A stretch of DNA of 64,000 bases from Thermococcus peptonophilus (GCF_001592435.1 NZ_CP014750.1:1240001-1304000), one strand, 5' to 3'. Shown: positions 14,359 to 32,568, numbered from the stretch's first letter. Translations and numbers: made by a program. Notes: a model not told the origin generated them from the letters alone.

Positions 14359-14381
14359 TTTGTCCCCACCAACATCGGATC

Positions 14382-14426
14382 ACATTTCAAGCGTTGTACC
14401 CCCGTTACATTTTTAAGCGTTGTTCC
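14382..14426. repeat. Tandem promoter-proximal repeat
   Basis: ACATTTCAAGCGTTGTACC (14382-14400) and ACATTTTTAAGCGTTGTTCC (14407-14426) differ by two substitutions and one extra base. The second contains the TATA-like TTTTTAAGC that should drive the next gene. The pair lies between divergent operons. Confidence 0.65.
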
Positions 14427-14432
14427 ATACAT

Positions 14433-16558: not shown

Positions 16559-16560
16559 GG

Positions 16561-17580
16561 ATGTTCACGAAATCACTCCACTATATTCGGATACTTTTTA
16601 AAACAATAAGGCATGTAAGGACATCAAAGAATGTTTTCCTTAACTATCTTGGGCTGACTCAAACATGTAGGGTTGTCTGTAGGAATGGTCTTGATCTTGG
16701 AACTTGGACAAAGAAAGATTATCAACTCTTAGAAATAATTCCTGCCCTATGTATCTTGAGTGAATATGGCTTTGAAGTCAAGCGAACTACAACTGGTGTG
16801 TCAGTTAATAATATTGAATTTAGATTACCCTCTAGGAGGGGTGCAATACTAAACTTACTACGCTTAATTAGGACATTAAATCCTGTCAGATTGCATCAGG
16901 AGGGTACTAATGTTTACATAACTTTTCCATATAATGGGAAGGAAGTAATTTTTCAATGCGATCCATCTCTTGGTCTATTTGGAACTTTGTGGGAGATATT
17001 TGGGGAATGTGAATACTGTGGAATTGATGTGAACAGGAAATACATCTTGGACATCGGGGCATTTGTTGGAGATAGTAGTATCTACTTTGCATTACAAGGC
17101 GCTAAAAAAGTGTATGCCATAGAGCCAAATCCCTACCTGTTCCCAATATTGGTTGATAATATACATCTCAATAAGTTGGATAATGTTATATGCCCTTACA
17201 ATCTCGCATTATCTGATTTAAACGGGAACCTTGAGTTTTTTATTGATAAATTCTCCTATGCCCGCTCTGGGATTTACAAGTGGGGAGAAGATAGCTCCGA
17301 GGAAGTGATTAGAGTCCCTGTTGTGGATATAGCGAGGTTCCTAAGGGAGCATCCTGCTGATGTACTCAAAGTAGACTGTGAAGGGTGTGAATATTCCGTT
17401 ATCCCTCGCCTAATAGATTCGGGATATATAAAAAACATTGAGGCAATGATATTGGAAGTGCACAAAATAGGAAATTATGTGCCTATGGAGCTGGTTACTC
17501 TGCTAAAGCAACATGGTTTGGTAGCAACAAAAAGAAGGGACGATAAAACCCTAATCGTGTCGTTTTACAATAAACGATAA
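16561..17580 (+). CDS. FkbM-family methyltransferase
   Basis: A 339-residue protein with an N-terminal part of about 155 residues that I do not recognise and a C-terminal SAM-dependent methyltransferase. 'ILDIGAFVGDSSIYFALQGA' is motif I, 'VYAIEPNPYLFPILVDNI' is motif II, and 'DVLKVDCEGCEYSVI' is the FkbM signature. FkbM proteins methylate sugar or polyketide hydroxyls, so O-methylation of a glycan sugar fits here. It starts two bases after the GT2 stop. Its last 30 bases overlap the convergent flippase gene. Confidence 0.85.
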   Translation: MFTKSLHYIRILFKTIRHVRTSKNVFLNYLGLTQTCRVVCRNGLDLGTWTKKDYQLLEIIPALCILSEYGFEVKRTTTGVSVNNIEFRLPSRRGAILNLLRLIRTLNPVRLHQEGTNVYITFPYNGKEVIFQCDPSLGLFGTLWEIFGECEYCGIDVNRKYILDIGAFVGDSSIYFALQGAKKVYAIEPNPYLFPILVDNIHLNKLDNVICPYNLALSDLNGNLEFFIDKFSYARSGIYKWGEDSSEEVIRVPVVDIARFLREHPADVLKVDCEGCEYSVIPRLIDSGYIKNIEAMILEVHKIGNYVPMELVTLLKQHGLVATKRRDDKTLIVSFYNKR

Positions 17581-18780
17581 ACACGTCATTATCCCCTGGC
17601 TTATTACTGTGGCTATTGCTGCTCCCTCTGCACCATACTGCGTTATTAAGAAAAAATTAAGAAGTACATTGATTAGAGCTGTGCCTCCTGCTATTTTTGT
17701 AAAACTCAGCTCTCTTCCTGTTGCGCTCAAAAAACTCCCAAATAAAGAGTTTAAAAACATAAATGGAAGAGCAAAGGCGAGTATTTTCAGGATAGAGATG
17801 CTCTCAAAAAATTCTTCACCAAAAACTGTCCTAATACCAAACCCCGAAAAGGCATAGTATCCGACTGCCCCAGAAATTCCAAGTCCTAGGAGCATTTGAA
17901 AGCTCTTCTTAAATAGCAATTCGAGCGTTTTTTGGTCCTCTATGTGAAGCCTTGCCATTGATGGCATTGTGATAGAGATAACTATGCCTGGAACAAAGAG
18001 AGAAACCTCGACTAGCGTATATGCAGCTCTATAAATTCCAGTCTCATAATCTCCTTTCATCAGACTCAGCATCACCATGTCCGTTCTGTAATAAATTAAT
18101 GAAAAAAATCCGATAAGCCAGAAGGGATATGATTTCTTCAGAAGATAAATCCATATTTGCGGTTTAAATCGAATACTAATTCTATTGACAAATCTAGCGC
18201 CCCATACCGTCCTCATAGAATCTCTTATTATGTAGCCAATAAGGAGCATGATTATGAATAACGGGAGACGTTTATAAAAGTAAAGAACCGTTCCACCAAC
18301 AAAAAATGCCCAAATTCTTTCAACAGTTCTTGCTATTGCTTCGTACTTGGTCACTTCATAGGCATACATAAGTCGTACAAACACTAATGAGACCCATGTA
18401 AACATAGCTTCAGCCCCGACTATTACTATGAGCGCCTTGATCCCCCTAGGCTTTGGAAGGATGAAAGTTAGAGCAATTATAATGATAAAGTTAACTAGCG
18501 CAAGGACAACCTTAAGCCCCAGCACACCCGGAAGAAGCTCATCGGCTTTACTCCTATCTCTTGCAACCTCTCGCATGAAGTAGTAGCTAACTCCTAAATC
18601 TGAAAAAATTCCCAGAAGTCCAACGTAGTAAAAGATGAAGGAGTACTGGCCAAGTCCCTCTGGTCCGAGAGTTCTACTAAGAATGACTATCACACCGTAG
18701 GCCAAGAGCTTTGAGATAATCTCTGCACCGAATAACCAGCCAGCATTTTTTATCAGTTTCGATTTTAAACTATCTGCCAT
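17551..18780 (-). CDS. Polysaccharide flippase (Wzx-like), second copy
   Basis: A 409-residue MOP-superfamily transporter with about 12-14 hydrophobic helices. 'SRTLGPEGLGQYSFIFYYV' near the N-terminus and 'GVSYYFMREVAR' are typical of Wzx. The frame is open from a TTG at 18792, but the ATG at 18780 fits better with the upstream T-rich promoter region. It closes the A+T-rich glycan set (14.4-18.8 kb) and is not a close copy of the flippase at 1-1421. Its 3' end overlaps the FkbM gene by 30 bases. Confidence 0.88.
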   Translation of the reverse strand: MADSLKSKLIKNAGWLFGAEIISKLLAYGVIVILSRTLGPEGLGQYSFIFYYVGLLGIFSDLGVSYYFMREVARDRSKADELLPGVLGLKVVLALVNFIIIIALTFILPKPRGIKALIVIVGAEAMFTWVSLVFVRLMYAYEVTKYEAIARTVERIWAFFVGGTVLYFYKRLPLFIIMLLIGYIIRDSMRTVWGARFVNRISIRFKPQIWIYLLKKSYPFWLIGFFSLIYYRTDMVMLSLMKGDYETGIYRAAYTLVEVSLFVPGIVISITMPSMARLHIEDQKTLELLFKKSFQMLLGLGISGAVGYYAFSGFGIRTVFGEEFFESISILKILAFALPFMFLNSLFGSFLSATGRELSFTKIAGGTALINVLLNFFLITQYGAEGAAIATVISQGIMTCLSFIVKRHD

Positions 18781-18896
18781 TGCAATTTCCAATGGAAACT
18801 GAAAAATTAAAAACTTATTGCCCTTTTTTGTGTTTTAAAATAAAGTTCTACTTTAGCTCGGTGCTCTGGCACTTCTTGCTGTCTAGTAAGTGTGCT

Positions 18897-19640
18897 TCAA
18901 CTTAATGATCTTACTACTGTGAAAATTCCTATTACTAGAATTATCACGTTTATAAGCTTCTTAAGCTTCTCCCCATTTGTGATTGAGTTTAGATGCGTGC
19001 CCAGATAAACTCCCGGAAGCGTCCCGGCAGTCAGAAGAAGGGCCAGATGATAGTCAACGCTCCCAAAGGCAGCATGGTTCAGAAATCCCATCAGTGAAAG
19101 TGCCAGGCCGTAGAGAAGAGAAACCCCAACTACCTCCTTTGGATCTACCCTCGCAACGTTCATGAGGGCAAAGCTCACTATAACCCCCGCCCCAACCGAT
19201 GTGAACTGGATTATCAGACCTGTAATGAATCCGAGGAGATAAACGTACTTCCACTCTCTCTTTACAGGGATGTGAAGCTCCCCCTTGAAAAGGCTTAGAG
19301 TGGCTGTAATGACCAAAATTATGCCGAGGAGGAGCGTGAGATAGTCATCTATCGAGTATTCCTCTAGCTTCTTCAACACAACGGCTCCGAGGATTACCGC
19401 GGGGATTCCACCGGCTATGAGCCTAGAGGCTATGTCGTGCCTTATCTTTCCTTTTCTGCCCTGGAAGAATATCCCAAAGATTCTGGTGATTGTTGCGTAG
19501 AGAAGATCAGTCCCCACCGCCGTTAGAGGCTCAACACCGAGGAAGATGAGGGAGGGCGTCATCAGAGCCCCACCGCCAACCCCAGTAAGGCCAACGAGGA
19601 AGCCCACTAAAAGGCCGAGCCCGACGAAGATCAGTTCCAA
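18897..19640 (-). CDS. TauE/SafE-family sulfite or organosulfur exporter
   Basis: A 247-residue membrane protein with about eight helices in two repeats. 'GVGGGALMTPSLIFLGVEP' near the N-terminus and 'SVGAGVIVSFALMNVARVDP' in the second half are the paired TauE/SafE signatures. The start is a TTG with GGAGGG before it. It is the last gene of the sulfate-activation operon, so transport of sulfate, sulfite or a related anion is likely. The direction of transport is not visible. Confidence 0.87.
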   Translation of the reverse strand: MELIFVGLGLLVGFLVGLTGVGGGALMTPSLIFLGVEPLTAVGTDLLYATITRIFGIFFQGRKGKIRHDIASRLIAGGIPAVILGAVVLKKLEEYSIDDYLTLLLGIILVITATLSLFKGELHIPVKREWKYVYLLGFITGLIIQFTSVGAGVIVSFALMNVARVDPKEVVGVSLLYGLALSLMGFLNHAAFGSVDYHLALLLTAGTLPGVYLGTHLNSITNGEKLKKLINVIILVIGIFTVVRSLS

Positions 19641-19658
19641 CGCCCTCCCCCCATAACC

Positions 19659-20213
19659 TCAAGGCAGATAGCCAAGCTCTTTAGCTTTCTGGATCACTGC
19701 TTCAACTTCTTCTTCAGGCGTCATCTTTGAGGAATCAACCTTCACCTCTGGGTTCTCGGGCTCCTCATAAACTCCATCATAGCCTGTTAGGCCCTTTATC
19801 TCTCCCCTCAACGCTTTCGCGTAAAGGCCCTTCGGGTCGCGCTGGATTCTAACCTCAAGGGGGGCATAGACGTAGACCTCTATGAAGTTTCCTATCTCCT
19901 TTCTCGCGTACTCTCTGACTGCCTTGTAGGGCGAGATAAGGGAAACGATAGCGATGACACCGTTCCTGCTTAGGAGCTTTGCCATGTAGATAACTACACG
20001 GTTGTGCATCTCCCTCGCTTCCTTGGAGAAGCCAAGCTCCGGGTAGAGGGTCTTCCTTATCGTATCCCCATCGAGAATCTCGACGCGGTAGCCAATCTCC
20101 CTTAACCTCTTGGCGAGCTTGACCGCTAAGGTTGTCTTTCCTGCACCGCTTGGACCTGTGAGCCAGATCGTGAAGCCCTTTTCTAAGTTTTTAGTTTTCT
20201 CCAATTTTTGCAC
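19659..20213 (-). CDS. cysC: Adenylylsulfate (APS) kinase
   Basis: Phosphorylates APS to PAPS with ATP. The 184-residue protein has the P-loop GPSGAGKTT (20-28), 'EILDGDTIRKTLYPELGFS' (the D-G-D APS-binding segment), 'ISPYKAVREYARKEI' and 'DPKGLYAKALRGEIKGLTG', all CysC hallmarks. The start is GTG. Sat, which makes APS, lies three kilobases upstream on the same strand, so the pair makes PAPS. No PAPS reductase is visible nearby. Confidence 0.93.
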   Translation of the reverse strand: MQKLEKTKNLEKGFTIWLTGPSGAGKTTLAVKLAKRLREIGYRVEILDGDTIRKTLYPELGFSKEAREMHNRVVIYMAKLLSRNGVIAIVSLISPYKAVREYARKEIGNFIEVYVYAPLEVRIQRDPKGLYAKALRGEIKGLTGYDGVYEEPENPEVKVDSSKMTPEEEVEAVIQKAKELGYLP

Positions 20214-20228
20214 TCTCCTTCTGTTTTA

Positions 20229-20444
20229 TCACTGGGCAAGTGCCTTCTCGACCTTAAAGGTTATCTCATCCAGAGGGCTGGAATGTGTCCTAACTGACGC
20301 GTTTATTATCTCAATGCCTACTATTTCCCCGTTCTCCCCGTAATCTATGAGAATCCCCTCTTCCACCTCAACAGTCTCAACTATCCTCGCGTTGGAGAAT
20401 TTAATGTACATAACATCATGAACAGGGTCGTAGGTTATTCTCAT
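20229..20444 (-). CDS. DUF2283-like small protein
   Basis: A 71-residue protein starting MRITYDPVHDVMYIKFSN, with 'ILIDYGENGEIVGIEIINAS' in the middle. This beta-rich pattern is the DUF2283 family. It begins one base after the upstream DUF4258-like gene ends. DUF4258/DUF2283 neighbours are suspected toxin-antitoxin pairs in several prokaryotes. The function here is unproven. Confidence 0.75.
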   Translation of the reverse strand: MRITYDPVHDVMYIKFSNARIVETVEVEEGILIDYGENGEIVGIEIINASVRTHSSPLDEITFKVEKALAQ

Positions 20445-20687
20445 TCACTCACCCCCATATTTCTTGAGCTTTGACGTTATGTATGCCGTAACTACGACGA
20501 TGTTTTCTCCATCTTCCTCATAAATAACCCTAACGACTTTCCCGTTGATGTTCTTCTGCGCAACTTTTCTGCCGAGGTAACCTTCAATAACCTTGTCGGG
20601 ATGCTTCAGCGTGTCTTCCACCAGTTCCTTTGGGATGCCCCTCTCTTCCATTCTTGCAAGTGCGTGGGGAATGTACTTTATGTGCAT
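20445..20687 (-). CDS. DUF4258-like small protein, candidate toxin
   Basis: An 80-residue protein: 'PHALARMEERGIPKELVEDTL' followed by 'HPDKVIEGYLGRKVAQK' and 'VVRVIYEEDGENIVVVTAY'. The H-A-x-x-R-M-x-x-R-G-I pattern and the closing strands are DUF4258, whose fold resembles small RNase toxins. It is immediately followed by the DUF2283-like gene. Its place inside the sulfate operon suggests an operon-embedded toxin-antitoxin pair; this is inference. Confidence 0.72.
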   Translation of the reverse strand: MHIKYIPHALARMEERGIPKELVEDTLKHPDKVIEGYLGRKVAQKNINGKVVRVIYEEDGENIVVVTAYITSKLKKYGGE

Positions 20688-20691
20688 GCTC

Positions 20692-22137
20692 TCACCAAGT
20701 TATAATGCTCTTTCCCCTCAAGGCCTCGGCCTTCTCCCTGAGGCCGAAGAGCGTCAGCAGGGTTGGTGCAACGTTGTATATCGTCAGCTGTGTCTCCTTT
20801 GGCTCATCAAAGCCAGGCAGGTACATCGAGAACACGCCCACCTCGGAGTGGTTTGCATCGTCAGGCCCCGTGTCGTTCTCTGGCAGATAGTTGCTCGGAT
20901 GCCCCACCGTCCCAGCGGCACGCCAGTTGAGGTCGTCGAAGTAAACCATTATGTCGGGCTTGTTACCCCGTGCAACGGGGTAGATGTCCTCGGGGAAGAA
21001 AACCCTGTTGTTCCACTTCTCCCCGTTAGGCCCGCGGATTGATCTAATCTGCTCCGCCACCTCTTCCCTGACCTCGTCGAACCTCGACTTGGGAACCTTC
21101 CCGAATAGCTCCCTCCCCTTGACGTTCAGGAAGACCCTGGAGTAGTAGCCGCCCCACCCCCAGGCGGTTGTTTCCTTCCAGTCCACCTTTATCTGCTCGA
21201 AGCGCTTGACCTTCCCGTCGTGGAGAACCTCCGGGTTCCTGACCTTGAGAAGGCCCTCTTCGGCCAGCCACTGGTTGACAGCGAAGTTGCCGTGCATCCC
21301 CTTTATACCGTGGTCGGAAACGATAAAGACGGCCGTCTCGTCGAGGTCAATGAGCTTAAGCGTCTCCCCAATCTCCTTGTCGAGGAGCTTCCAGTAGTCC
21401 GGGATGACGTCTTCGTACCTGTTCCCCTTCCCCGGGTAGAGGTGGTGGTTCGGGTCGAAGTAGCGCCAGAAGGCGTGGTGAACCCTGTCGAGGCCGATCT
21501 CAACGAAGTGGAAGTAGTCCCACTCCTTCTCCTGGAGCAGGTATCTAATGACCTCAAAGCGCTTCTCCGTCATCTCCCAGAGGCCTTCCTTAACTTCGTC
21601 CTTGGCCTCCTTCCTGAAGGGGACGTCGAAGATGTATTCTCCAACGAGGCGCTCTATCTCGCCCTTAAGCTCCTTTGGATAGGTGTAATCAACGCTCGCG
21701 TCGGGTGTTATGAAACAACTCACGAGGTGGCCGTTGATTGGCTTCGGGGGATATGTGGGAGGGACGCCGACTATAATGGATTTCTTGCCGACTTCACCGA
21801 GGTAGTCCCATACCGTTGGCTCCTTCACCTTCTTGCTGTGGGCTATCCAGTATTCGGTGTAGGAGTGCCCCTTCCTGTGCCTGAAGCCGTAGAGCCCGAG
21901 CTCGCCGGGGGTCTTTCCGGTTACCATCACCATCCACATGGGTATGGTTATCGCCGGAATCCCGGTCTTCATTGGGCCGTGGATTGACCTCTCGATGAGC
22001 CTCCTCAGGTTCGGCAGTTCGTCGTAGAACTTTCCGAAGAGAAGCTCAGGGGGAGCCGAATCGAGACCTATAACGAAGACCTTCCTGGTCTCCTCCATTC
22101 CCTCCCTAACCTTCTTCTCAAACTCCACCTTTCTCAC
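20692..22137 (-). CDS. Alkaline phosphatase superfamily phosphodiesterase-like protein
   Basis: A 481-residue cytosolic-looking protein. 'VFVIGLDSAPPELLFGKF' is the first metal site, 'AITIPMWMVMVTGKTPGELG' carries the Thr nucleophile, and 'VFIVSDHGIKGMHG' and 'DDANHSEVGVFSMY' hold the remaining metal ligands, as in type I phosphodiesterase/nucleotide pyrophosphatase proteins. The GTG start overlaps the stop of the DHH gene, so the two are translationally coupled. In a PAPS-making operon it might act on APS, PAPS or a sulfated or phosphorylated glycan; which one cannot be told from sequence. Confidence 0.82.
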   Translation of the reverse strand: MRKVEFEKKVREGMEETRKVFVIGLDSAPPELLFGKFYDELPNLRRLIERSIHGPMKTGIPAITIPMWMVMVTGKTPGELGLYGFRHRKGHSYTEYWIAHSKKVKEPTVWDYLGEVGKKSIIVGVPPTYPPKPINGHLVSCFITPDASVDYTYPKELKGEIERLVGEYIFDVPFRKEAKDEVKEGLWEMTEKRFEVIRYLLQEKEWDYFHFVEIGLDRVHHAFWRYFDPNHHLYPGKGNRYEDVIPDYWKLLDKEIGETLKLIDLDETAVFIVSDHGIKGMHGNFAVNQWLAEEGLLKVRNPEVLHDGKVKRFEQIKVDWKETTAWGWGGYYSRVFLNVKGRELFGKVPKSRFDEVREEVAEQIRSIRGPNGEKWNNRVFFPEDIYPVARGNKPDIMVYFDDLNWRAAGTVGHPSNYLPENDTGPDDANHSEVGVFSMYLPGFDEPKETQLTIYNVAPTLLTLFGLREKAEALRGKSIITW

Positions 22138-23192
22138 CTCAGATACTCCTCAATGATCCTAAGGGCCTCTTCAACTTTACCCCTCTCGCAGACGCAACCC
22201 AAGACCTCCCTCTTGCCGCCGGTGTTGGTACCCAGCTCCTTAAGGCGGGCTATAACTTCTCCCATGTCTATCCTCTCAGCCTCTTCCGGAGAGATGCGGA
22301 AGTATATCTGAGCTTTCCCGTGGAAGTTTCTGTTAACGACCACTGCACCCCAATAACCCATCTCCCAGACGAGCTTCCTCGCGACCTTGGAGATTATGTT
22401 AAAGGGGCTTTCGAACTCCACAAAGGCGAAGCCGTTCTTTTCCTCTACGCCTGAGACGGCGCTTTCTATTGCTTCCTTTATGGTCGTTGCCTGTTTAACC
22501 CACGGCTCGTATTCAAGGAGCTCCCTAACGTCGTGATTTAAGAGAACTCCAACGGCCTCTTCCACCGCTTCCCTGTCCATCGCGATGTAGTTTGAATCTA
22601 TCAGTTCAACGAGCCTTATGGCATCCCCCGGAGTGAGTCCTTCCCTTTTGAGGAGTTCACTAACGGTTTCAATCTCAAAGGCCTTCTCGCCAATATCTCC
22701 AACGACCCCAAGGGCGCTCCAGGCGTTCCATATCCCGAAGTACTCTGAGACGACGAGAGAGTTCGAGGGATAGTACTCACCTTCCAGTGATGGATTCACT
22801 TGCTCAACGAGCGGGTTTTTGATCTTCGGCTGGGTGTGGTGGTCGATGAAGAGCGTTGGTACTTTGACTTTCTCAACCTCGTGTGGAACGTTGAAGTCGA
22901 GGACATAGAGCTTCTTGGCCCTCTCGATTGCTTCCCATATTCTTCCATCGAAGCGAAACTCGCCGATTGGAGCGGTTAGGTTCGTGAAATCCTCAAGTTT
23001 AAGCGCGCTCACTAGGAGGGCAGCCGAGGTTATTCCGTCCGTGTCCCAGTGGTGGACGATTAGGTGCATAGGATTCTCCCCCGCTCGAGATAATCGTGCT
23101 CTCTCATCCAGAAATTCTTTCAAAACATCTCTCTTGACTTTTCTACTGAACTTTTCAACCACATCCGCTATGCCAATTTCTGGGTTTCCCAT
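22134..23192 (-). CDS. DHH-family phosphoesterase (possible PAP phosphatase/oligoribonuclease)
   Basis: A 352-residue DHH/DHHA1 protein. 'LIVHHWDTDGITSAALLVSA' is motif I (D-x-D), 'LYVLDFNVP' supplies motif II, 'FIDHHTQP' is the DHH motif, and 'NTGGKREVLGCVCERG' at the C-terminus is the GG-G substrate motif of DHHA1. NrnA-type members hydrolyse 3'-phosphoadenosine 5'-phosphate (PAP) and short oligonucleotides. Next to Sat and CysC a PAP-removing role is attractive because sulfotransfer yields PAP. The start is the ATG 23192 with GGTGAAGAGA before it. Confidence 0.85.
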   Translation of the reverse strand: MGNPEIGIADVVEKFSRKVKRDVLKEFLDERARLSRAGENPMHLIVHHWDTDGITSAALLVSALKLEDFTNLTAPIGEFRFDGRIWEAIERAKKLYVLDFNVPHEVEKVKVPTLFIDHHTQPKIKNPLVEQVNPSLEGEYYPSNSLVVSEYFGIWNAWSALGVVGDIGEKAFEIETVSELLKREGLTPGDAIRLVELIDSNYIAMDREAVEEAVGVLLNHDVRELLEYEPWVKQATTIKEAIESAVSGVEEKNGFAFVEFESPFNIISKVARKLVWEMGYWGAVVVNRNFHGKAQIYFRISPEEAERIDMGEVIARLKELGTNTGGKREVLGCVCERGKVEEALRIIEEYLR

Positions 23193-23238
23193 TCTCTTCA
23201 CCACTCAAAGAAACTAATGAACAAAGAAAACGTAAGTG

Positions 23239-24378
23239 TCATTCCACAAACGGGTTCTCGAAGCTCCTGATGACCTCGTAGACCTCGGGTCTCATCATAT
23301 ACTCCGGCGGCTGTTCGCCGGCCATTATCATCTTCCTGAGCTTGGTGCCGCTTATGTGGACGTGGAACTCCTCGCTGTGGGGGCATATCTTGGCGTTGAC
23401 CATTCCGCCGCACTTCTTGCAGTAGAAGGCCTCCCTGATGAACATCGGGGTTATGCCGAGGTCGGGGAAGTTGTCGAACATGTCCCAGGCCTCGTAGGGA
23501 CCGTAGTAGTCGCCCACACCGGCGTGGTCCCTTCCGACTATGAAGTGGGTCGCACCCATGTTCTTCCTCATGATGGCGTGGTGAATGGCCTCTCTTGGAC
23601 CAGCGTAGCGCATCTCGTAGCGGACGGTCGCGAGGGTTGCGGCGTCCTTGGGATAGTAGTGCTTGAAGAGGGCCTCATAGGCCTTGATGATAACCTCGTC
23701 CTTGTAGTCGCCCTTCTTTTTCCTTCCGAGGACTGGGTTAATGAAGAGGCCGTCGACGAAGGTGAGTGCCGCCTTCTGGACATATTCGTGGCCGACGTGG
23801 GGAGCGTTCCTCGTCTGGAATGCAACTATCGTCTTCCAGCCGAGCTCCTTGAAGAGAACTCTCGTCTCAACGGGCCTGAGAGTGTACTTGGCGAAGGGGT
23901 TCGGGAGCTCGTTGAGAAGCTCTATCTCGCCGCCGATGAGGTAGTCCCCCATCTCCATTACCCTAGCGACACCGGGGTGAGCGGGGTCATCGGTCTTGAA
24001 GACCTTCACCGCGAACTCCCTCTTGTCGTAGGTGTATATCTCCTCTACGTGCATCCTTGCTATCGGAAGGTCTCCGTGGTAGAGCAGAACCGCGTCCCCT
24101 TCCTCGAAGTCTGGCTTTTCAACGTCGAGAACTATGGGAATTGTCCATGGGGTGTCGTCGCTGAGGCGCATGTCGTGGAGGACGCTCTCAAAGTCGTCCC
24201 TCGTCAAGAAGCCCTTGAGAGGGGAATAAACGCCATGCGCGATGTTTTCCAGGTCGATCACCCGGCCGTGGTCGATCTGAACCCTTGGATACTCCTCCTG
24301 CTCGCTCAGAATCCTCTCCCTGGTCTTCGGGGCAACGATCCTTCTAACGAGCTTTCCGCCGTGGGGTTTTGAGACCAT
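23239..24378 (-). CDS. sat: Sulfate adenylyltransferase
   Basis: ATP sulfurylase: sulfate plus ATP to APS and pyrophosphate. The 379-residue protein contains QTRNAPHVGH (188-197, the nucleotide-binding QTRNPxHxxH with Ala for Pro), GRDHAG (282-287) and ISGTKLR (342-348). A zinc site is formed by C320, C323, C332 and H334, as in archaeal and Thermus-type Sat. A GGTGGTAGC site precedes the ATG. It heads the sulfate part of the operon with the DHH and CysC genes downstream. Confidence 0.96.
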   Translation of the reverse strand: MVSKPHGGKLVRRIVAPKTRERILSEQEEYPRVQIDHGRVIDLENIAHGVYSPLKGFLTRDDFESVLHDMRLSDDTPWTIPIVLDVEKPDFEEGDAVLLYHGDLPIARMHVEEIYTYDKREFAVKVFKTDDPAHPGVARVMEMGDYLIGGEIELLNELPNPFAKYTLRPVETRVLFKELGWKTIVAFQTRNAPHVGHEYVQKAALTFVDGLFINPVLGRKKKGDYKDEVIIKAYEALFKHYYPKDAATLATVRYEMRYAGPREAIHHAIMRKNMGATHFIVGRDHAGVGDYYGPYEAWDMFDNFPDLGITPMFIREAFYCKKCGGMVNAKICPHSEEFHVHISGTKLRKMIMAGEQPPEYMMRPEVYEVIRSFENPFVE

Positions 24379-24414
24379 GCTACCACCTCAGAATGACAAA
24401 AACAATGAAAAGGC

Positions 24415-24633
24415 TCAGTCAAGGTAGCCGAGGGCCCTGAGCCTCTCCTTGACCTTCTCCTCCTCTTCCTCGCTGAATACTTCCTCTTCATCCTCTTCGA
24501 GGTTCGCGAGAACCTCGCGGAGGACGTAGGTAACGTAGTCGTCAACGCTGTCGAAGCCCGTATCTTCGATCCTCTCCTTTATCTTGTCGTAGAGGCTCTT
24601 CGGGATCTTGATCTCAACCATCTGCTCGGCCAT
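24415..24633 (-). CDS. Small ribbon-helix-helix-like protein
   Basis: A 72-residue acidic protein: 'MVEIKIPKSLYDKIKERIED' then 'FDSVDDYVTYVLREVL' then a Glu-rich tail. The strand-helix-helix pattern matches CopG/ribbon-helix-helix proteins. An excellent site (GGAGGTGAGAAG) precedes it. It lies 36 bases before sat and may regulate the operon or act as an orphan antitoxin; neither is shown. Confidence 0.72.
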   Translation of the reverse strand: MAEQMVEIKIPKSLYDKIKERIEDTGFDSVDDYVTYVLREVLANLEEDEEEVFSEEEEEKVKERLRALGYLD

Positions 24634-24687
24634 CTTCTCACCTCCTTATTCCAAGTGAAAATTTTCCAAAGGAATATAAACGTTACC

Positions 24688-25683
24688 TTAATCCCCTCTC
24701 TGTATCTTCGCATGCCCACCAACCAAACTCTTTTTAAGCTCAAGGTTCCTTATCTCGCACTTCTCATCGATTATCGAGCGCCATATCGTCGCGTTCTTGA
24801 GAACCGTACCCCTGAAAACTATCGAGTCGCTCACGTCGGAGTTCTCTATGACGCAGTCCTCTCCAATGTATGCGTACGGTCCGATTATGGAGCGGCCCAG
24901 TATCTTAGTCCCCCTCTTTATGACGACCGGAGGGATTATCTTGGAGTATGGACTTATCTGGATCTCCTCGATGTGACTCTCATTAAGGAGGGTCTTTAGT
25001 GCCTCCAGATAGCTGTCCGCCGAGCCTATGTCGTACCAGAACTCGGAGAACCGATAGGCCCTTATCTCAATACCCCTCTTCAGGAGCCAGCTCAGGAAGT
25101 AACCCGGTGCGTCTCTGTGGCCGTTTGCCAGGTATTCGTCAATGAGCGCCATGACATCCTTCGGGAGGGCGTAGACGCCGGTGCTTATCAGGGTGGACTT
25201 CGGCACGGCCGGTTTCTCCTCGAAGTCAACAACCCTGTCTCCCTCAAGGAGCACCACACCGTACCTCTTGGCGAGCTCTGGATCGCCAACGTCGTAGACC
25301 GCTATCAGGGACTTTCCATCGTACCTCTTTAGGAAGTCTTGAAGGGAGAACGAGAAGAGGTTGTCTCCGGCGATAATCAGGTAGTCGTCAAGGCCTATCT
25401 CTTCGATTATCTTTTTCAGCGCGCCGATCGTTCCGAGCTTCTCCTCTTCGTGTAAGGTGTCTTCAACTATTAGCTTGACGCCCCACCTTTCGGCGAAGGG
25501 CCTGAACCTGCTCTCGAAGAACCTGTTAGTGGATATATATGTCTCGAGACCGGTTTCCATAACTTTCTCCATTATGTGGTCGAGTATGGTTTTATCCCCC
25601 ACGGGCAGCAGGGCCTTGGGGACGTCCTTCGTGATCGGCCAGAGCCTTGTAGCGTAGCCACCGGCCATTATGACGGCCTTCAT
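24688..25683 (-). CDS. NDP-sugar pyrophosphorylase with beta-helix tail
   Basis: A 331-residue nucleotidyltransferase starting MKAVIMAGGYATRLWPITKD, with 'IIAGDNLFSF' for metal binding and C-terminal hexapeptide-type repeats ('IGPYAYIGEDCVIENSDVS'). It belongs to the GlmU/RmlA/ManC-like sugar-1-phosphate nucleotidyltransferases; the sugar and base are not determinable by eye. The ATG at 25683 follows GGTGATCATC; a GTG three codons earlier is less likely. It is upstream of the sulfate genes and divergent from the broken epimerase. Confidence 0.87.
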   Translation of the reverse strand: MKAVIMAGGYATRLWPITKDVPKALLPVGDKTILDHIMEKVMETGLETYISTNRFFESRFRPFAERWGVKLIVEDTLHEEEKLGTIGALKKIIEEIGLDDYLIIAGDNLFSFSLQDFLKRYDGKSLIAVYDVGDPELAKRYGVVLLEGDRVVDFEEKPAVPKSTLISTGVYALPKDVMALIDEYLANGHRDAPGYFLSWLLKRGIEIRAYRFSEFWYDIGSADSYLEALKTLLNESHIEEIQISPYSKIIPPVVIKRGTKILGRSIIGPYAYIGEDCVIENSDVSDSIVFRGTVLKNATIWRSIIDEKCEIRNLELKKSLVGGHAKIQRGD

Positions 25684-25792
25684 GATGATCACCTTGGCAT
25701 CATATCTACTTGGGTTCCTGCGACACGTTTCGGAATGAATGTGCTGGAAACTTATTTAAGTTCTTCTCTTTACTCTTCTGGAGGTGATAGAT

Positions 25793-26742
25793 GTGAAGGC
25801 CCTCGTTACAGGCGGCGCGGGCTTCATAGGTTCTCACCTCGTGGACAGGCTGATGGAAAGTGGCTATGAAATAAGAGTTCTGGACAACCTGAGCACTGGG
25901 AGTATCGACAACATAAGGCACTGGATGGAAAACGAGCACTTCGAGTTCATGAAAGGGGACATGATGGACGTTGAGACCGTAAAGAAGGCCATCGAAGGCG
26001 TTGATGTCGTCTTCCACCTCGCGGCCAACCCGGAGGTTAGAATCAGCGCCCAGAGCCCGGAGACGCCTACGAGAGCAACGTCACAATAACCTACAACCTC
26101 CTGGAGGCCATGAGGAATTCTGACGTTGAATACCTCGTCTTTACGAGCTCCTCGACGGTCTACGGCGATGCTGAAGTCATACCAACTCCGGAGAGCTACG
26201 GGCCCCTCAAGCCGATAAGCGTCTACGGCGGGGCAAAGCTCGCTGCTGAGGCCATAATAAGCGGCTACTCTCACATATTCGGATTCAGGGCCCTTTCCTT
26301 TCGACTGGCTAACATCATCGGCAAGCGCTCGAACCACGGCGTCATATACGACTTCATCAACAAACTGCGGAAGAACCCGAACGAGCTTGAAATCCTTGGA
26401 GACGGCACCCAGAGGAAGAGCTATCTCCATGTGAGCGACACCGTTGAGGGTATTCTACGCATCTTCGAACACTTCAGGAAAAGCGGCGAAACATACGACG
26501 TCTACAACCTCGGCAACGATGACTGGATAACGGTGAAAGAGATAGCCGAGATTGTGAGCGAGGAGATGGGTTTAAACCCCAAGTTCCGCTTTACTGGTGG
26601 GGTAGATGGTGGAAGGGGCTGGAAGGGGGACGTTAAGCTTATGCTTCTCGACATAGGCAAGGCCAAGTCCGCCGGCTGGAAGCCTAAGATGAACAGCTAC
26701 GAGGCCGTCAGGAGAACAGTTAAGGAGCTTCTTGAGGGGTGA
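25793..26742 (+). pseudogene. NAD-dependent sugar epimerase (GalE-like), frameshifted
   Basis: An extended short-chain dehydrogenase that would act as a UDP-glucose 4-epimerase or relative. 'ALVTGGAGFIGSHLVDRL' binds NAD, 'VFTSSSTVYGDA' and 'SVYGGAKLAAE' hold the catalytic Ser and Tyr-x3-Lys. The frame starting at GTG 25793 (GGAGGTGAT upstream) ends at a stop at 26087-26089. The rest continues in the frame one base back from about 26063. Adding one base near 26060-26063 restores a continuous protein of about 316 residues (…SPE-D-AYE…). Either a recent pseudogene or a sequence error. Confidence 0.85.
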
Positions 26743-27467: not shown

Positions 27468-27689
27468 ATGGACAGAAATCTGAATCTTGAACGCGAGATT
27501 ATTGCCCTGTTAGAGAAAAAGGGCCCATTGAGCGTCGCTTTTATCACCCGGTTTTTGAACGAGATGGGAGTTGAATGCACCCGCCAGCGAGTTGAGAGGG
27601 TTCTGAGGGGCCTTGTCTCGAGGGGTGTTGTAGAGGCATTTTACAACAGCGGTATCTACAACAAGAGAAAGCACTACAGGGTGAGGTGA
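27468..27689 (+). CDS. Small winged-helix DNA-binding protein
   Basis: A 73-residue protein: 'REIIALLEKKGPLSVAFITRFL' helix, 'CTRQRVERVLRGLVSRGVVEAF' recognition helix and wing ending 'KRKHYRVR'. This is a minimal winged helix-turn-helix. GGTGAG precedes the ATG. It is the first gene of the cluster for secreted DUF1102-like proteins and ends six bases before the second winged-helix gene. A role in controlling that cluster is likely but inferred. Confidence 0.78.
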   Translation: MDRNLNLEREIIALLEKKGPLSVAFITRFLNEMGVECTRQRVERVLRGLVSRGVVEAFYNSGIYNKRKHYRVR

Positions 27690-27695
27690 TAAATC

Positions 27696-28187
27696 ATGGC
27701 AGGTAACAAAGCCCCCTCGAGGATGATACTGGGCAACAATAGGCGAATGCTTCTAATAGAGTTCCTCCAGAGGAAAAACGGGAGCGCTGAGCTCAGGGAT
27801 GTTGTGGAGTACATTGCCGAGAAGGAGGGTAACACTGACAGAAAGCACAGGAAGAGCGTCTACGTCAGCCTCATGCAGACCCATCTACCAAAGCTGGAGA
27901 GGGAGGGGATTGTCACCTTCAGGAGAGGCACTATAACCCTTTTAAAGGTTCCAAACAACGTCACCCTTTACATGGAGGTCGTCCAGAAGAACGACATAAG
28001 CTGGAGCGTGTTTTATGCGGGCCTCTCGGTGATCTTCGCCCTCATGGCCATATGGTTCGGCAACGTTCTCCTCCTCTTTGCTGCAGTGACCTATCTGACA
28101 GTCTCTGTTATACACCACAAGAGGACGTACCTCATAGCCAGACCAAAAGAGAGGAAAAACATCGAAAAATCAGAGGACAATGTGTAG
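27696..28187 (+). CDS. Winged-helix protein with two membrane helices
   Basis: A 163-residue protein with an N-terminal winged helix ('RRMLLIEFLQRKNGSAELRD', 'VYVSLMQTHLPKLEREGIVTF') and two C-terminal hydrophobic helices at about residues 108-145 ('WSVFYAGLSVIFALMAIWF' and 'VLLLFAAVTYLTVSVI'), then a basic tail. Such membrane-tethered wHTH proteins occur in archaeal surface-structure loci. It could sense envelope state and regulate the downstream secretion genes; the ligand is unknown. Confidence 0.75.
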   Translation: MAGNKAPSRMILGNNRRMLLIEFLQRKNGSAELRDVVEYIAEKEGNTDRKHRKSVYVSLMQTHLPKLEREGIVTFRRGTITLLKVPNNVTLYMEVVQKNDISWSVFYAGLSVIFALMAIWFGNVLLLFAAVTYLTVSVIHHKRTYLIARPKERKNIEKSEDNV

Positions 28188-28196
28188 GTAATGACC

Positions 28197-28230
28197 GGTT
28201 ACCGGGCGGTAACCTCCAACTTCATATATA
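28197..28230 (+). promoter_or_regulatory. Operator palindrome and TATA box of the DUF1102 genes
   Basis: GGTTACC (28197-28203) and GGTAACC (28208-28214) are a perfect 7-bp inverted repeat with a GGGC spacer. TATATA follows at 28225-28230, predicting a start near 28250-28256. The palindrome sits just upstream of the TATA box, where archaeal activators bind. Confidence 0.7.
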
Positions 28231-28251
28231 TCCGAAGAACCCATGTGATTG

Positions 28252-28374
28252 TGGAGCGGCCGTAATGGTCGTCCGCCAAGGGCACTGTGTTGCCCACCAA
28301 TGTGGTGTCGAAACACCTCTGGTATTTCGGGACCTGCTTCCGTACCACAGTGCCTCCGTACAGGAGGCGAAAAA
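28252..28374 (+). promoter_or_regulatory. Structured mRNA leader with sequestered ribosome binding site
   Basis: About 120 bases between the predicted start point and the DUF1102 start codon form nested and competing helices. GCCTCC (28352-28357) pairs with GGAGGC (28363-28368), which is the ribosome binding site. GGCACTGTG (28281-28289) pairs with CACAGTGCC (28346-28354), which shares GCC with the first helix. GGGCA (28280-28284) can instead pair with TGCCC (28291-28295). GGTGT-CGAA-ACACC (28304-28317) is a separate tetraloop hairpin. This is the layout of a translational switch. I know no named class that it matches. Confidence 0.6.
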
Positions 28375-28968
28375 ATGAGAAAGAATCTTGCTTTGGGAAT
28401 TTTTGGCCTGTTGGTGGCCTTTGGCCTAGTTTTGGGGGCTGGAGCTAACTTCAGGGACTACAACGCGGACAGGAGCGTTCATTGGAACATCGTGACCGAT
28501 GACAACGAGCTCATCGATCTGACTCCAATTCAGCCCTACGCGTACATTAACGACGGTGGCGTCCTGGTTGTGGACATAAGCCCGAACAACCCGAACTATC
28601 CGGGCTACGGGATGGGCCTGAGCCCGAACTCAGAGTACAACTTCGATGAAGTGTTTGAAGTCAGCAACGACCTCTGGGAAGAGAACATGAGCATAGTCGT
28701 TAGGATAACCAGCGACAACGAGGCTATTCAGTTCTACGGACATGAGTTTGACGTCTACGACAGCACTACCGGTCAGACGGTTTACGCCAGCGACATGGCG
28801 AAGAACGACGTCTGCTTTGTTGTGAACAACGGAGACGCGGTCAAGGTCGGTATGGACTTCACAGTCGGGAACGACGCACCGGGCACGACCAACAGCGCAG
28901 CCGTACACATTGAGGCCTACAGGCTAGGCACAGAGCCGGCTGATCTGGTTGGCAAGTGCGGTCAGTGA
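28375..28968 (+). CDS. Secreted DUF1102-like filament subunit candidate, copy 1
   Basis: A 197-residue secreted protein. A signal peptide (MRKNLALGIFGLLVAFGLVL) ends at GAGA, and the mature part begins NFRDYNADR. The body is predicted all-beta ('VTDDNELIDLTPIQPYAYIN', 'FDEVFEVSNDLWEENM') and I assign it to DUF1102 from recall. The start is the ATG 28375 with GGAGGCG seven bases upstream; a longer frame from 28249 would read through the structured leader. Only 14 bases separate it from its paralogue. DUF1102 proteins resemble TasA/camelysin and archaeal bundling-pilus subunits, so a filament role is plausible. Confidence 0.8.
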   Translation: MRKNLALGIFGLLVAFGLVLGAGANFRDYNADRSVHWNIVTDDNELIDLTPIQPYAYINDGGVLVVDISPNNPNYPGYGMGLSPNSEYNFDEVFEVSNDLWEENMSIVVRITSDNEAIQFYGHEFDVYDSTTGQTVYASDMAKNDVCFVVNNGDAVKVGMDFTVGNDAPGTTNSAAVHIEAYRLGTEPADLVGKCGQ

Positions 28969-28982
28969 AGGAGGAATGAAAG

Positions 28983-29522
28983 ATGAATAAACTATTTGGA
29001 TTGGCATTGTTAATGGTTGGAATGCTCCTGGCCGTTGGCGCGGGTGCTAACTTCCGCTACTACTCCGCCGACAGGACAGCGAGCTTCGATGTTGTCTCCG
29101 ACGACAACGAGCTTATTGACCTGACCGCACTCCAGCCCTACGTGACCTACGACGCTGGAAAGCTCTACGTGGACATAAGCGAGTACAACCCGAACCACCC
29201 CGACTGGGGAGGAACTGGCATGAGCCCGAACACTACCTACGTCTTTGAGGAGATGTTCGAGGTAAGCAACGACCTCTGGGAGAACAATCAGACTGACTAC
29301 CCGATCTGTGTTGACATAAAGAGCAACCACGACAACGTCCTGCTCTTTGCAGGGAACTACACGAACCCCATAGCAGGGCCCTCACAGAACCTTGAGTTCA
29401 CGGTCTACTATGGAGACCCCGTGCCGGTTGGCATGATCTTCGACAACACCAACGCAAGCCTTGGCATGGACCAGTTCCAGCTCAGCTTCGAGGCACATGC
29501 GGGAGCCTGCGGGCCACAGTGA
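28983..29522 (+). CDS. Secreted DUF1102-like filament subunit candidate, copy 2
   Basis: A 179-residue paralogue of the preceding protein. The signal peptide ends GAGA before NFRYYSADR. The two share 'DDNELIDLTxxQPY', a 'DISxxNPN' strand and 'FEVSNDLWE'. GGAGGAATGAAAG precedes the ATG. Two related subunits in tandem upstream of a dedicated signal peptidase resemble the TasA/YqxM or AbpA/AbpB arrangement. The assignment rests on motifs and context. Confidence 0.8.
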   Translation: MNKLFGLALLMVGMLLAVGAGANFRYYSADRTASFDVVSDDNELIDLTALQPYVTYDAGKLYVDISEYNPNHPDWGGTGMSPNTTYVFEEMFEVSNDLWENNQTDYPICVDIKSNHDNVLLFAGNYTNPIAGPSQNLEFTVYYGDPVPVGMIFDNTNASLGMDQFQLSFEAHAGACGPQ

Positions 29523-29531
29523 TTTCCTTTC

Positions 29532-29545
29532 GGGGCATTTGCCCC
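29532..29545 (+). terminator. Intergenic hairpin between DUF1102 copy 2 and the signal peptidase
   Basis: GGGGC-ATTT-GCCCC, followed by a T-containing run (ACTTTGTTAATCTT). It could attenuate transcription or protect the 3' end of the upstream mRNA so that subunits outnumber the peptidase. Confidence 0.45.
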
Positions 29546-29574
29546 ACTTTGTTAATCTTGGAGAGATGTTGAGG

Positions 29575-30642
29575 ATGAAAAAACTGCTTGAAGGCATTAT
29601 CACAGCCGTAATTTTTATGATACTCGTAGCCTCAGTGGTGGGGTTCATCCTTGACAGGCCGATTCTGGTATCTTACGCTTATTCTGAGAGCATGACACCC
29701 ACGATCAACAAGGGGGACCTCTTCTTCATGAACCCCCTCTCAAGGAATGCTGACGTGGGGGATATCATTGTTTTCCACAGAAGTGACGGCTGGACCGTCC
29801 ACAGGGTTTATGCAATAGTTGATGGGAAGTACGTAACAAAGGGCGACCTCAACGTTGCCACTGACCAGCAGGATGGGGCATACCCGGAGGTTAAGCCCAC
29901 GGATGTGGCTGGAAAGGTAGTCCAGATTTCAAACCATCCGCTGGTAATCAGGGGAGGTGGGGACTTCATAGTGAGCCTCAGGAAAAGGCTGACGAACGTC
30001 TATGCCATAGTGATAATAGTGATCCTCGGCGGTCTGCTCACGTTCTCTGGAAGCTCAACTGGCAGATCCAGAAGAAAGTCAAAACGCAGTAGATTCATCA
30101 GAATCCAGGGAAAAACGCTCTACGGGATCGTCTCAGTCCTCATGATCTCAGGTTTTCTGGCGGTCGTCATTGCATCCTGGGGAACGCTGGCGTTTACATA
30201 CTCTTCAACCCTGGCCGGAGGACAGAGGGAGGGCTGGTATCTGCCCGGAACGACCTTTGAGAAAAACCTCAGCGTTGAGAACCACGCGGTTTATCCTTTC
30301 TACTACTTCTTCAAGGATGACAGTGGAAGGGTCGAGCTGAAAACAACCGGCTTCCGGCTCGCTGGAGGGGAGGCCCAGAACCTCAGCCTCACCGTGACCG
30401 TTCCCGAAGACACCAGGATTTACAGGGAAGAAGTATCTGTGCGGTCATACCCGGCTCTTCTGCCCTACAGCCTGATAAACTGGGGATACTCAATCAGCCC
30501 GTACTTCCCGCTGGTGCTGTACCTGATTCCACTCTCGGCACTGCTGTTTGCGTTCTACTGGATCTCCGGGATTTCGGGAGAGGTCGTCTCAATCAGAAAG
30601 GGGAAGATTTTATCCAAACTAACGGGAGATGGTAGGTTATGA
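29575..30642 (+). CDS. SipW-like signal peptidase I with extra outer domain
   Basis: A 355-residue membrane protein. After one helix, 'YSESMTPTINKGDLFF' carries the catalytic Ser39 and 'GWTVHRVYA' the His76; the Ser-His dyad marks the ER/SipW type rather than Ser-Lys. 'VTKGDLNVATDQ' gives conserved Asp. A helix near residues 145-160, a basic loop (RRKSKR), a second helix, an outer beta domain of about 120 residues and a final helix follow. A start at ATG 29566 is also possible. It probably cleaves the DUF1102-like preproteins. Confidence 0.85.
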   Translation: MKKLLEGIITAVIFMILVASVVGFILDRPILVSYAYSESMTPTINKGDLFFMNPLSRNADVGDIIVFHRSDGWTVHRVYAIVDGKYVTKGDLNVATDQQDGAYPEVKPTDVAGKVVQISNHPLVIRGGGDFIVSLRKRLTNVYAIVIIVILGGLLTFSGSSTGRSRRKSKRSRFIRIQGKTLYGIVSVLMISGFLAVVIASWGTLAFTYSSTLAGGQREGWYLPGTTFEKNLSVENHAVYPFYYFFKDDSGRVELKTTGFRLAGGEAQNLSLTVTVPEDTRIYREEVSVRSYPALLPYSLINWGYSISPYFPLVLYLIPLSALLFAFYWISGISGEVVSIRKGKILSKLTGDGRL

Positions 30643-31586
30643 AGGCACTTATAGTTCTTGTTTTCCTGATGGGGGCTTTCCTCATCGTGGGCTCCAGCGG
30701 GAATTTCAGGGAGTATTCCTCGTCCAGAGCGGCTAGCGTGATGGTCGTCCCCCACGAGGACGAATACGTGGGCTTTAACTGTTCGGACGGCGAAATTACA
30801 TCCGTCACAGTTCTAAATGGAGAAGGAAAGGACTTCGACGTAATGACGCTGGAGAACCAGCTCATAACAAACGAATACGTGAGCATTACTCTGGAGCCGG
30901 CTTATTACTATGTTCCAGCTGGAGTGTATCTAGATGTTGAAAGCGGCACGGGAACACCGGTTGATATAGCACCCGGGGACTCACATACCTTTGGGGGACA
31001 CGTTGCGGCCAGCTCGGCCACGCCGGGTGAGTACTACGTTCCGGTCACGATCTACGCCACCTGGGACGGAGGGGGCGCGGTGATTGAGAGCTGCCCTATA
31101 AAGATTACCGTTCTCGACGATCCGAGAATAACGAAGACTCTGCTCTCGGGAAACACGAGCGACATACCTATGAAGACGTACCAGGAGTGGACGTTCCAGA
31201 TAGAGGTATCAAACCCAACTAACCATGACCTGAATCTGACAGTCAGGGACACCATACCAGCCGAGTTCAACGTCAGCCTCTCGGAAGTCTCGGCAAGCTC
31301 AGGAACGTACAGCTTCTGGGCCGCGAGCCAGGGAAACGGCAATGGAAACGGAAATTCACAGAACGGGAACCCCCATCCAGCAACCAAGATGAAATGGGAA
31401 GTCTCAGTGCCAGCCGGTGAAAGCGAGCACATCAACGTGACGATATTCACAAGGGTTAACAACGGCAACCAGCAGGAGTTCACCTCATGCGGCACTTACT
31501 CGCTCAACGATGGTGCCACGATAGACGGCTACCCGGGGAGGAGCAACGGAATAGAGGTTAGCGTCGCCTGTTCAGACGGCGATTGA
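30639..31586 (+). CDS. Secreted beta-sandwich protein with the NFR-type mature start
   Basis: A 315-residue secreted protein: signal peptide (MKALIVLVFLMGAFLIV), then GSSGNFREYSSSRAA, closely like the N-termini of the two DUF1102 proteins. Two beta domains follow: residues about 30-165, and a DUF11-like domain with 'VSNPTNHDLNLTVRDTIPAEF'. An Asn-Gly-rich low-complexity loop (QGNGNGNGNSQNGN) interrupts the second. The start codon overlaps the peptidase stop as ATGA. It could be a filament cap, anchor or minor subunit. Confidence 0.75.
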   Translation: MKALIVLVFLMGAFLIVGSSGNFREYSSSRAASVMVVPHEDEYVGFNCSDGEITSVTVLNGEGKDFDVMTLENQLITNEYVSITLEPAYYYVPAGVYLDVESGTGTPVDIAPGDSHTFGGHVAASSATPGEYYVPVTIYATWDGGGAVIESCPIKITVLDDPRITKTLLSGNTSDIPMKTYQEWTFQIEVSNPTNHDLNLTVRDTIPAEFNVSLSEVSASSGTYSFWAASQGNGNGNGNSQNGNPHPATKMKWEVSVPAGESEHINVTIFTRVNNGNQQEFTSCGTYSLNDGATIDGYPGRSNGIEVSVACSDGD

Positions 31587-31605
31587 AGATTTGGAGTTGA
31601 TTTAG

Positions 31606-32568
31606 ATGAAGGTAAATAAAAGGAAGGCCCTGATTGCGGGCCTTGGAATTTCACTCTCACTGGCGGTTCTTTTTGGTGTTTATTCGGCCGTGGCCTACGC
31701 CACGCCAGTGTCAACCAGGGATGTTAGTTACACTACCGCTTATTCTGAAGGGGGTTCACTGAGGCACTACGCCCTCTTCTCAAACGAGACCGTTTACCGG
31801 AACGGCACCTCGCTGAAGTATTATCCCTCGGGGATAACCGACGCCATAATCGGAGAGTACAGGTATTCAACGTCACCCGGAGCTTCCGGCAGTTATAAAA
31901 TAGAGATGCACTCGAACTACTACGTCTCAGTGAACAGGAAGCCAGTTTACCTGCTCAACAGAACGACTGAGATAGCATCGGGAAACTTCGACGGTTCATT
32001 CTCTGTCCCGGTGGAGTTCAACATGACATCGCTTGGGGAAGAGCTCAAAACGATAAGGGAAGGTACTGATCTATACCGGGCTGAGAACGAGGTCTATCTA
32101 ACGGTTACTGTCATCATAGATGGACGTGAGCCCTTTACGCAGAAAATTCAGGTGAAAAAAGACACTTCAGGAATGCTGAGTCTTGAGGGAGCAAACAAGG
32201 ACTACCAGAAAGTTGAGAGGAACGTACGCGTCACAGAAAACAGCGTTGGCTTCCTTGGGACGAGTGTTAAGGGCTCCACGGCGAGAAAAGTTTTTCCTGC
32301 TATGGCACTGCTCTTCGCGGCTCCACCGCTGGGCTTTGTCTACTCAAAGAGGGAGAAGAAGCCCAAAGACGAACTTGCTCCACTGAGGAAGTACATCGTG
32401 GAGGGCAAATCTCCAGAGGGGACAAGAAAAGTCGAACTCAAAACCCCCGAAGACCTTAAGAGGGTCTTTGAGCTTGTGGACAGGCCGATAGTCCACGACG
32501 GCAGTAAGGAGGGCGACGTCTATTCAATAGCGGATGGCGACACCGTCTACGAATACCAACAACTTTAA
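31606..32568 (+). CDS. DUF5305-like membrane protein
   Basis: A 320-residue protein with an N-terminal helix (about 10-32), an outer beta-rich domain (35-215), a second helix ('AMALLFAAPPLGFVYS') and an acidic/basic cytoplasmic tail of about 80 residues. The architecture and 'STRDVSYTTAYSEGGSLRHYA' resemble the archaeal DUF5305 family. It is the last gene of the secretion cassette, 19 bases after the preceding gene. It may couple the outer filament to the cytoplasm; no enzymatic motif is visible. Confidence 0.7.
   Translation: MKVNKRKALIAGLGISLSLAVLFGVYSAVAYATPVSTRDVSYTTAYSEGGSLRHYALFSNETVYRNGTSLKYYPSGITDAIIGEYRYSTSPGASGSYKIEMHSNYYVSVNRKPVYLLNRTTEIASGNFDGSFSVPVEFNMTSLGEELKTIREGTDLYRAENEVYLTVTVIIDGREPFTQKIQVKKDTSGMLSLEGANKDYQKVERNVRVTENSVGFLGTSVKGSTARKVFPAMALLFAAPPLGFVYSKREKKPKDELAPLRKYIVEGKSPEGTRKVELKTPEDLKRVFELVDRPIVHDGSKEGDVYSIADGDTVYEYQQL

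Follow-up and report, generated by a model that had tools for sequence, protein, structure and literature searches.

A conserved DUF1102 gene cassette of Thermococcus peptonophilus that probably encodes a dedicated donor-strand-type surface pilus

The stretch of the Thermococcus peptonophilus genome analysed here (64,000 nucleotides, GCF_001592435.1, NZ_CP014750.1:1240001-1304000; called the window below) carries seven collinear genes on its + strand at positions 27468-32568, and the intergenic gaps between their open reading frames (ORFs) were mostly tiny or none. Assignment of the seven ORFs with Pfam and NCBIfam models gave the order HTH1, HTH2, DUF1102 protein A, DUF1102 protein B, signal peptidase, a third secreted protein (Sec3) and a DUF5305 protein (Table 1), which is the one-strand layout that an earlier sequence-only reading of this DNA had described. 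It is probable that this operon makes a dedicated donor-strand-type surface pilus, with A and B as pilins, Sec3 at its start or end, the peptidase and the DUF5305 protein at its base, and the two HTH proteins as regulators. The evidence consists of the gene content and its conservation, the predicted folds of A and Sec3, and the homology of the regulator, the peptidase and the DUF5305 protein to members of a haloarchaeal TafA cluster.

According to this proposal, A and B would be exported via Sec, and the signal peptidase of the operon itself would cut ahead of the motif NFR-x-Y. The freed N-terminal strand would then insert into the following subunit, filling its open beta-sandwich groove and giving a head-to-tail chain, and Sec3 would donate the same strand and begin or terminate the filament as TapA does. 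The peptidase ectodomain and the DUF5305 protein, both anchored in the membrane and invariably retained with the pilins, may hold the base of the growing filament, and expression would be controlled by the membrane-anchored HTH2 together with HTH1.

The cassette genes behave as a unit. DUF1102 was found in 72 of the 74 good Thermococcales genomes, covering all six genera and nearly always as tandem copies, and the order HTH2, A, B, peptidase and DUF5305 was kept in the 35 Thermococcales loci that were read (six genera), with a third DUF1102 gene (C) added in some genera. A scan of the genome collection revealed the same arrangement in some 30 more loci, Archaeoglobales among them, with up to 62% identity to A; because order and sequence are conserved over both sets of loci, the cassette is not a chance assembly. 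A short version was observed in Halocatena, which contained DUF7344, a separate 70-amino-acid membrane protein, a secreted protein, a signal peptidase and DUF5305. In two complete genomes (G026 and G040) DUF1102, DUF5305 and the dedicated peptidase were all absent together, and one genome (G028) retained a decayed copy of the entire cassette.

Both DUF1102 proteins scored far above the gathering cut-off of PF06510 (A 199.0 bits and B 193.2 bits against 22.2), and B stood in tandem with A at every locus read. A, B and Sec3 have the mature start NFR-x-Y in common, so the third secreted protein with the same start that the sequence-only reading had noticed is indeed present. That reading had also cited a reported kinship of DUF1102 proteins to archaeal bundling pili and had called for structure prediction. 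The AlphaFold model of A, made with 46 relatives, had a mean predicted local distance difference test score (pLDDT) of 85 and a predicted template modelling score of 0.81, and in a Foldseek search of the PDB its top match was the Pyrobaculum bundling pilin AbpA (7ueg; E 1.3e-4, prob 1.00), followed by FimA. AbpA was also the top PDB match in VIA-align (Z 8.2, 2.8 A over 116 residues, 12% sequence identity), with the Natrinema Tafi pilin 9p0a at Z 6.9 and the Sulfolobus thread 7pnb at Z 6.0. An AbpA-type pilin fold of the A subunit is thus supported by the model, and on this point the sequence-only reading, whose interpretation held for the larger part, was borne out. It was further observed that mature residues 1-9 of A were poorly ordered in the single-chain model and that the structural alignments began near residue 20; the conserved N-terminus lies before this point and is a candidate donor strand. 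Profile comparison linked DUF1102 to the haloarchaeal Taf subunits with 94.9% probability, and PDB sequence searches with A, B and their profiles returned chance matches only.

Several observations weigh against the pilus. The AbpA score of Z 8.2 is moderate, with the ranges common for beta-sandwiches starting just below it, and unrelated MSP/PapD-type domains scored up to Z 7.4 against A; in these models the margin of AbpA over unrelated beta-sandwiches appears real yet not large. Residues 10-17 of A were modelled as a strand within its own chain. At the family level, the TafA equivalog NF052520 was missed by both proteins (A 24.9 and B 14.5 bits against a cut-off of 190), and no match to PF12389 (TasA/camelysin; cut-off 22.5 bits) was obtained for A or B. 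One complete genome (G080) lacked A, B and most of C and had HTH2 cut short, with peptidase, Sec3 and DUF5305 intact, so the remaining cassette genes may have a further use there or the pilin loss may be recent. Finally, the filament, the cleavage site and the subunit contacts are predictions here. The loss of the pilin genes in G080 was itself a clean one (locus L135, G080:C1:974500-984500, at ~3485).

Since the filament is deduced in this way from genes and predicted folds, and beta-sandwiches are common, with PapD- and MSP-type domains reaching Z 7, the DUF1102 proteins might instead be monomeric or sheet-forming surface proteins of an S-layer-associated coat or matrix, that is, beta-sandwiches that do not polymerise by strand exchange. 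We consider this unlikely, though it is the strongest of the alternatives, because AbpA was the best match by both Foldseek and VIA-align, the mature N-terminus is strongly conserved though unstructured in the models, and the gene partners correspond to those in a cluster whose fimbrial proteins carry names.

Sec3 begins its mature sequence with NFREY, following the pattern of A and B. Its AlphaFold model (pLDDT 85) showed residues 1-19 disordered, which, like the poorly ordered start of mature A, fits the free donor strand expected of a subunit of the proposed pilus. Two domains followed this stretch. Domain 1 (residues 22-138) was of Ig type with the PapD-family chaperones nearest to it (SfaE, Z 10.4, 2.1 A over 98), and it was related to DUF1102 by hhalign (97.8%); domain 2 (139-291) was near pilin domains such as EbpB (Z 9.9). 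DUF11 was matched by about half of the Sec3 relatives, and the isopeptide-forming domain family gave weak matches in four of them. K145, D183 and N269 (mature numbering), a trio typical of isopeptide-forming domains, were invariant among the relatives, and an internal isopeptide bond in domain 2 is our guess. TapA donates an unstructured N-terminal strand, has a stable Ig domain that cannot accept one, and sits at the filament start (PMC10151520). By analogy, Sec3 may be a TapA-like initiator or terminal subunit, and we propose that, with Ig-like domains that look complete in the model, it could give a strand but not take one. Full-length Sec3 was not seen in the genus-g3 loci, where it was short or unrecognised.

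The peptidase scored above the cut-off of TIGR02228 (57.8 against 51.85 bits), and its residues S39, H76 and D91 were invariant across 26 aligned sequences, in agreement with the Ser-His peptidase read from the sequence earlier. A SipW-like enzyme is therefore encoded beside the DUF1102 subunits as had been claimed, and the housekeeping signal peptidase of the genome is a separate gene. Run against a 12-sequence set, a hidden Markov model of the ectodomain matched peptidases of haloarchaeal clusters and of class relatives with E 1e-15 to 4e-6 and barely matched those of camelysin-type cassettes. The DUF5305 protein was above the PF17231 cut-off (40.7 against 29 bits), with transmembrane (TM) segments at residues 6-37 and 228-247. 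What is new here is the peptidase ectodomain and DUF5305 as a candidate conserved assembly platform. It is conceivable, though we put it forward only tentatively, that the two form an archaeal usher-like machine, in which signal cleavage and donor-strand insertion would be combined in one membrane complex and the Ig-like ectodomain would grip the pilus base.

DUF5305 was also found outside the DUF1102 cassette. Beside alaS in some Thermococcus (L074, L075 and L076), an HTH gene, two camelysin/TasA-family preproteins, a signal peptidase and DUF5305 lie together; these preproteins passed the PF12389 cut-off and carried the SipW-type signal TIGR04088. DUF5305 hence accompanies two different pilin-like families, which would support a role in assembly. 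Since DUF5305 accompanies unrelated-looking preproteins in other cassettes, and the machinery was retained without pilins in G080, it could also be argued that the cassette is a dedicated secretion and quality-control unit, in which the peptidase with its ectodomain and DUF5305 process and fold exports in general and DUF1102 proteins are merely the main clients. This is very unlikely in our view: the housekeeping peptidase is encoded separately, G026 and G040 lack the dedicated peptidase as well as the pilins, and one cleavage motif is common to three neighbouring preproteins. In the genome of the window only a 95-amino-acid DUF5305 fragment was present near alaS (G000:C1:1376709-1376903, L079).

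The sequence-only reading had placed the regulators, the extra domain of the peptidase and DUF5305 outside any described system. This could not be upheld. A cluster on the Haloferax larsenii plasmid pHl5678-1 passed the NCBIfam cut-offs for TafA (257.7 against 190 bits), TafC and TafE, and it also held a DUF7344-TM protein, DUF5305 and a collinear signal peptidase that likewise bears the additional ectodomain, all three homologous to those of the window over most of their length (HTH2 36% identity over 121 amino acids; peptidase 24% over 359). The window cassette thus resembles the haloarchaeal Tafi (Taf) pili, for which a structure from Natrinema sp. J7-2 is available (9p0a), in its DUF7344-TM regulator, its signal peptidase I with four TM segments and ectodomain, its DUF5305 protein, and its small preproteins, whose signal is of the signal peptidase I (SPase I) type and whose N-terminal start is conserved. 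It differs in that the subunits are DUF1102 proteins under the TafA cut-off, that genes for TafC (LamG) and TafF were not found in the window cassette, and that in Thermococcus all the genes share one strand, A and B stand in tandem, and Sec3 has two domains. TafA NF052520 had no match at E <= 1e-3 in any Thermococcales genome searched.

The bundling pilus AbpA of Pyrobaculum calidifontis, in which strand exchange has reportedly been described, is the best structural match of A, but the identity is as low as given above and the PDB sequence searches did not recover the relationship. Threads of Sulfolobus acidocaldarius (Saci_0406, 7pnb) consist of beta-sandwich subunits linked by donor strands and have an SPase I-type signal, and no assembly machinery was identified beside the thread subunit (PMC9715654). 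They are also structurally similar to A, with a lower score than AbpA, and the window cassette, unlike them, carries candidate assembly machinery. As the DUF1102 subunits fall under both the TafA and the TasA family cut-offs, they form a branch of their own within a known kind; the cassette stands as a distinct branch beside Tafi and bundling pili and is not a wholly new system.

The parallel to Bacillus tapA-sipW-tasA that had been drawn from the sequence stood for gene content, with Sec3 looking TapA-like, and failed for gene order. The Thermococcus cassette has its subunits first and the TapA-like gene last, carries DUF5305 and DUF7344 as extra genes, and its peptidase is larger than SipW by an ectodomain and further TM segments. 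That it is a direct archaeal counterpart, a true TasA/SipW/TapA system, is the least probable of the explanations and can almost be set aside: equal roles are present (a TasA-type subunit fold, a putative Ig-type TapA-like initiator and a dedicated SipW-like Ser-His peptidase) and the peptidase weakly matched the Bacillus SipW model NF046067 (22.3 bits against a cut-off of 190), but A and B lack PF12389, profile comparison of DUF1102 with TasA-type proteins found no link past the signal peptide, the order differs, and a closer TasA-type cassette exists separately beside alaS. No PF12389 match was found in the window's own genome. Elsewhere in several Thermococcales, an orphan PF12389 gene was seen downstream of one conserved membrane-protein gene with no signal peptidase adjacent (L129-L132 and L134). 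In-frame TGA codons in PF12389 genes were considered and rejected, as the TGAs are the genes' own stops and the match runs one step beyond.

Of the two winged-helix proteins named in the sequence-only reading, HTH2 was borne out, with a DUF7344 score of 66.9 bits against a gathering cut-off of 27.8 (PF24035); it is the sole above-cut-off DUF7344 protein of the genome and has a hydrophobic stretch at residues 100-142. HTH1 gave weak matches only (best Pfam match PF03965, 5e-3). It was kept at the same place in five Thermococcales genera and was undetected in the genus-g3 and Archaeoglobales loci read. In Halocatena (L073 4590-5206, - strand) the DUF7344 winged helix and the two TM helices are separate genes, which are fused in Thermococcus and Haloferax.

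Ahead of the pilin genes, a palindrome GGTAAT-N5-TTACC and a third half-site GGTAACC (28187-28214) stand directly 5′ of a TATA box. These half-sites and the TATA box were kept in nearly all of 16 aligned Thermococcus leaders, and from this pattern the palindrome and half-site are likely an operator. The leader of pilin A (window 28240-28374) terminates in a hairpin that pairs the Shine-Dalgarno sequence. It was confined to a single Thermococcus clade (22 loci), in which the stem was conserved while the loop varied, and it was absent in other genera; because the hairpin is invariant, it has no covariation support. Upstream of it, the leader sequence GGGCACTGTG may be able to pair with CACAGTGCC, a segment overlapping the anti-Shine-Dalgarno arm; a possible two-state switch in this leader was spotted by eye only. 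An Rfam search of this leader gave no matching family.

Table 1. Coordinates of the cassette genes and of the candidate control elements in the window
Feature	Position	Strand	Basis
HTH1, 73-amino-acid winged-helix protein, putative regulator	27468..27689	+	ORF; weak winged-helix matches only
HTH2, DUF7344 winged helix and two TM helices, putative membrane-anchored regulator	27696..28187	+	PF24035 2e-18
Candidate operator and TATA box ahead of pilin genes	28187..28230	+	Sequence; leader alignment
Leader hairpin TGCCTCC-GTACA-GGAGGCG, pairs Shine-Dalgarno of pilin A	28351..28369	+	Leader comparison
DUF1102 protein A, predicted major pilin	28375..28968	+	PF06510 4.8e-59; predicted fold
DUF1102 protein B, predicted second pilin	28983..29522	+	PF06510 3e-57
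Archaeal signal peptidase I dedicated to the cassette, with 4 TM segments and extracellular beta-rich domain at ~206-311	29575..30642	+	TIGR02228
Sec3, predicted minor subunit with two domains (Ig-like, then DUF11/isopeptide-type) after a free N-terminal strand	30639..31586	+	AlphaFold, structural matches
DUF5305 membrane protein, two TM segments flanking ectodomain	31606..32568	+	PF17231

The cassette is flanked at its 5′ side by a minus-strand tRNA-Arg and a tRNA-Gln, and at its 3′ side by an inorganic pyrophosphatase gene, which adjoins the cassette in many relatives as well. Further upstream (window ~12500-26700) lies a glycan/exopolysaccharide-like island with glycosyltransferases, a flippase-like protein and nucleotide-sugar genes, inside which the GC content is low (0.38-0.40) at 14-18 kb. 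A literature search on DUF1102, DUF5305 or DUF7344 found nothing.

Several archaea are now known to have donor-strand pili, and how such pili assemble is the question that the cassette addresses. A conserved unit of peptidase with ectodomain, DUF5305 and TapA-like protein accompanies the subunits all the way from Thermococcales through Archaeoglobales to the haloarchaeal Taf clusters. The usher-like machine, if true, would explain how archaeal donor-strand pili are assembled without chaperone and usher. The pilus reading would give nearly every member of the Thermococcales a predicted surface filament, made from a family so far labelled as of unknown function; some Thermococcales are genetically tractable, and the question of assembly is therefore directly testable in them.

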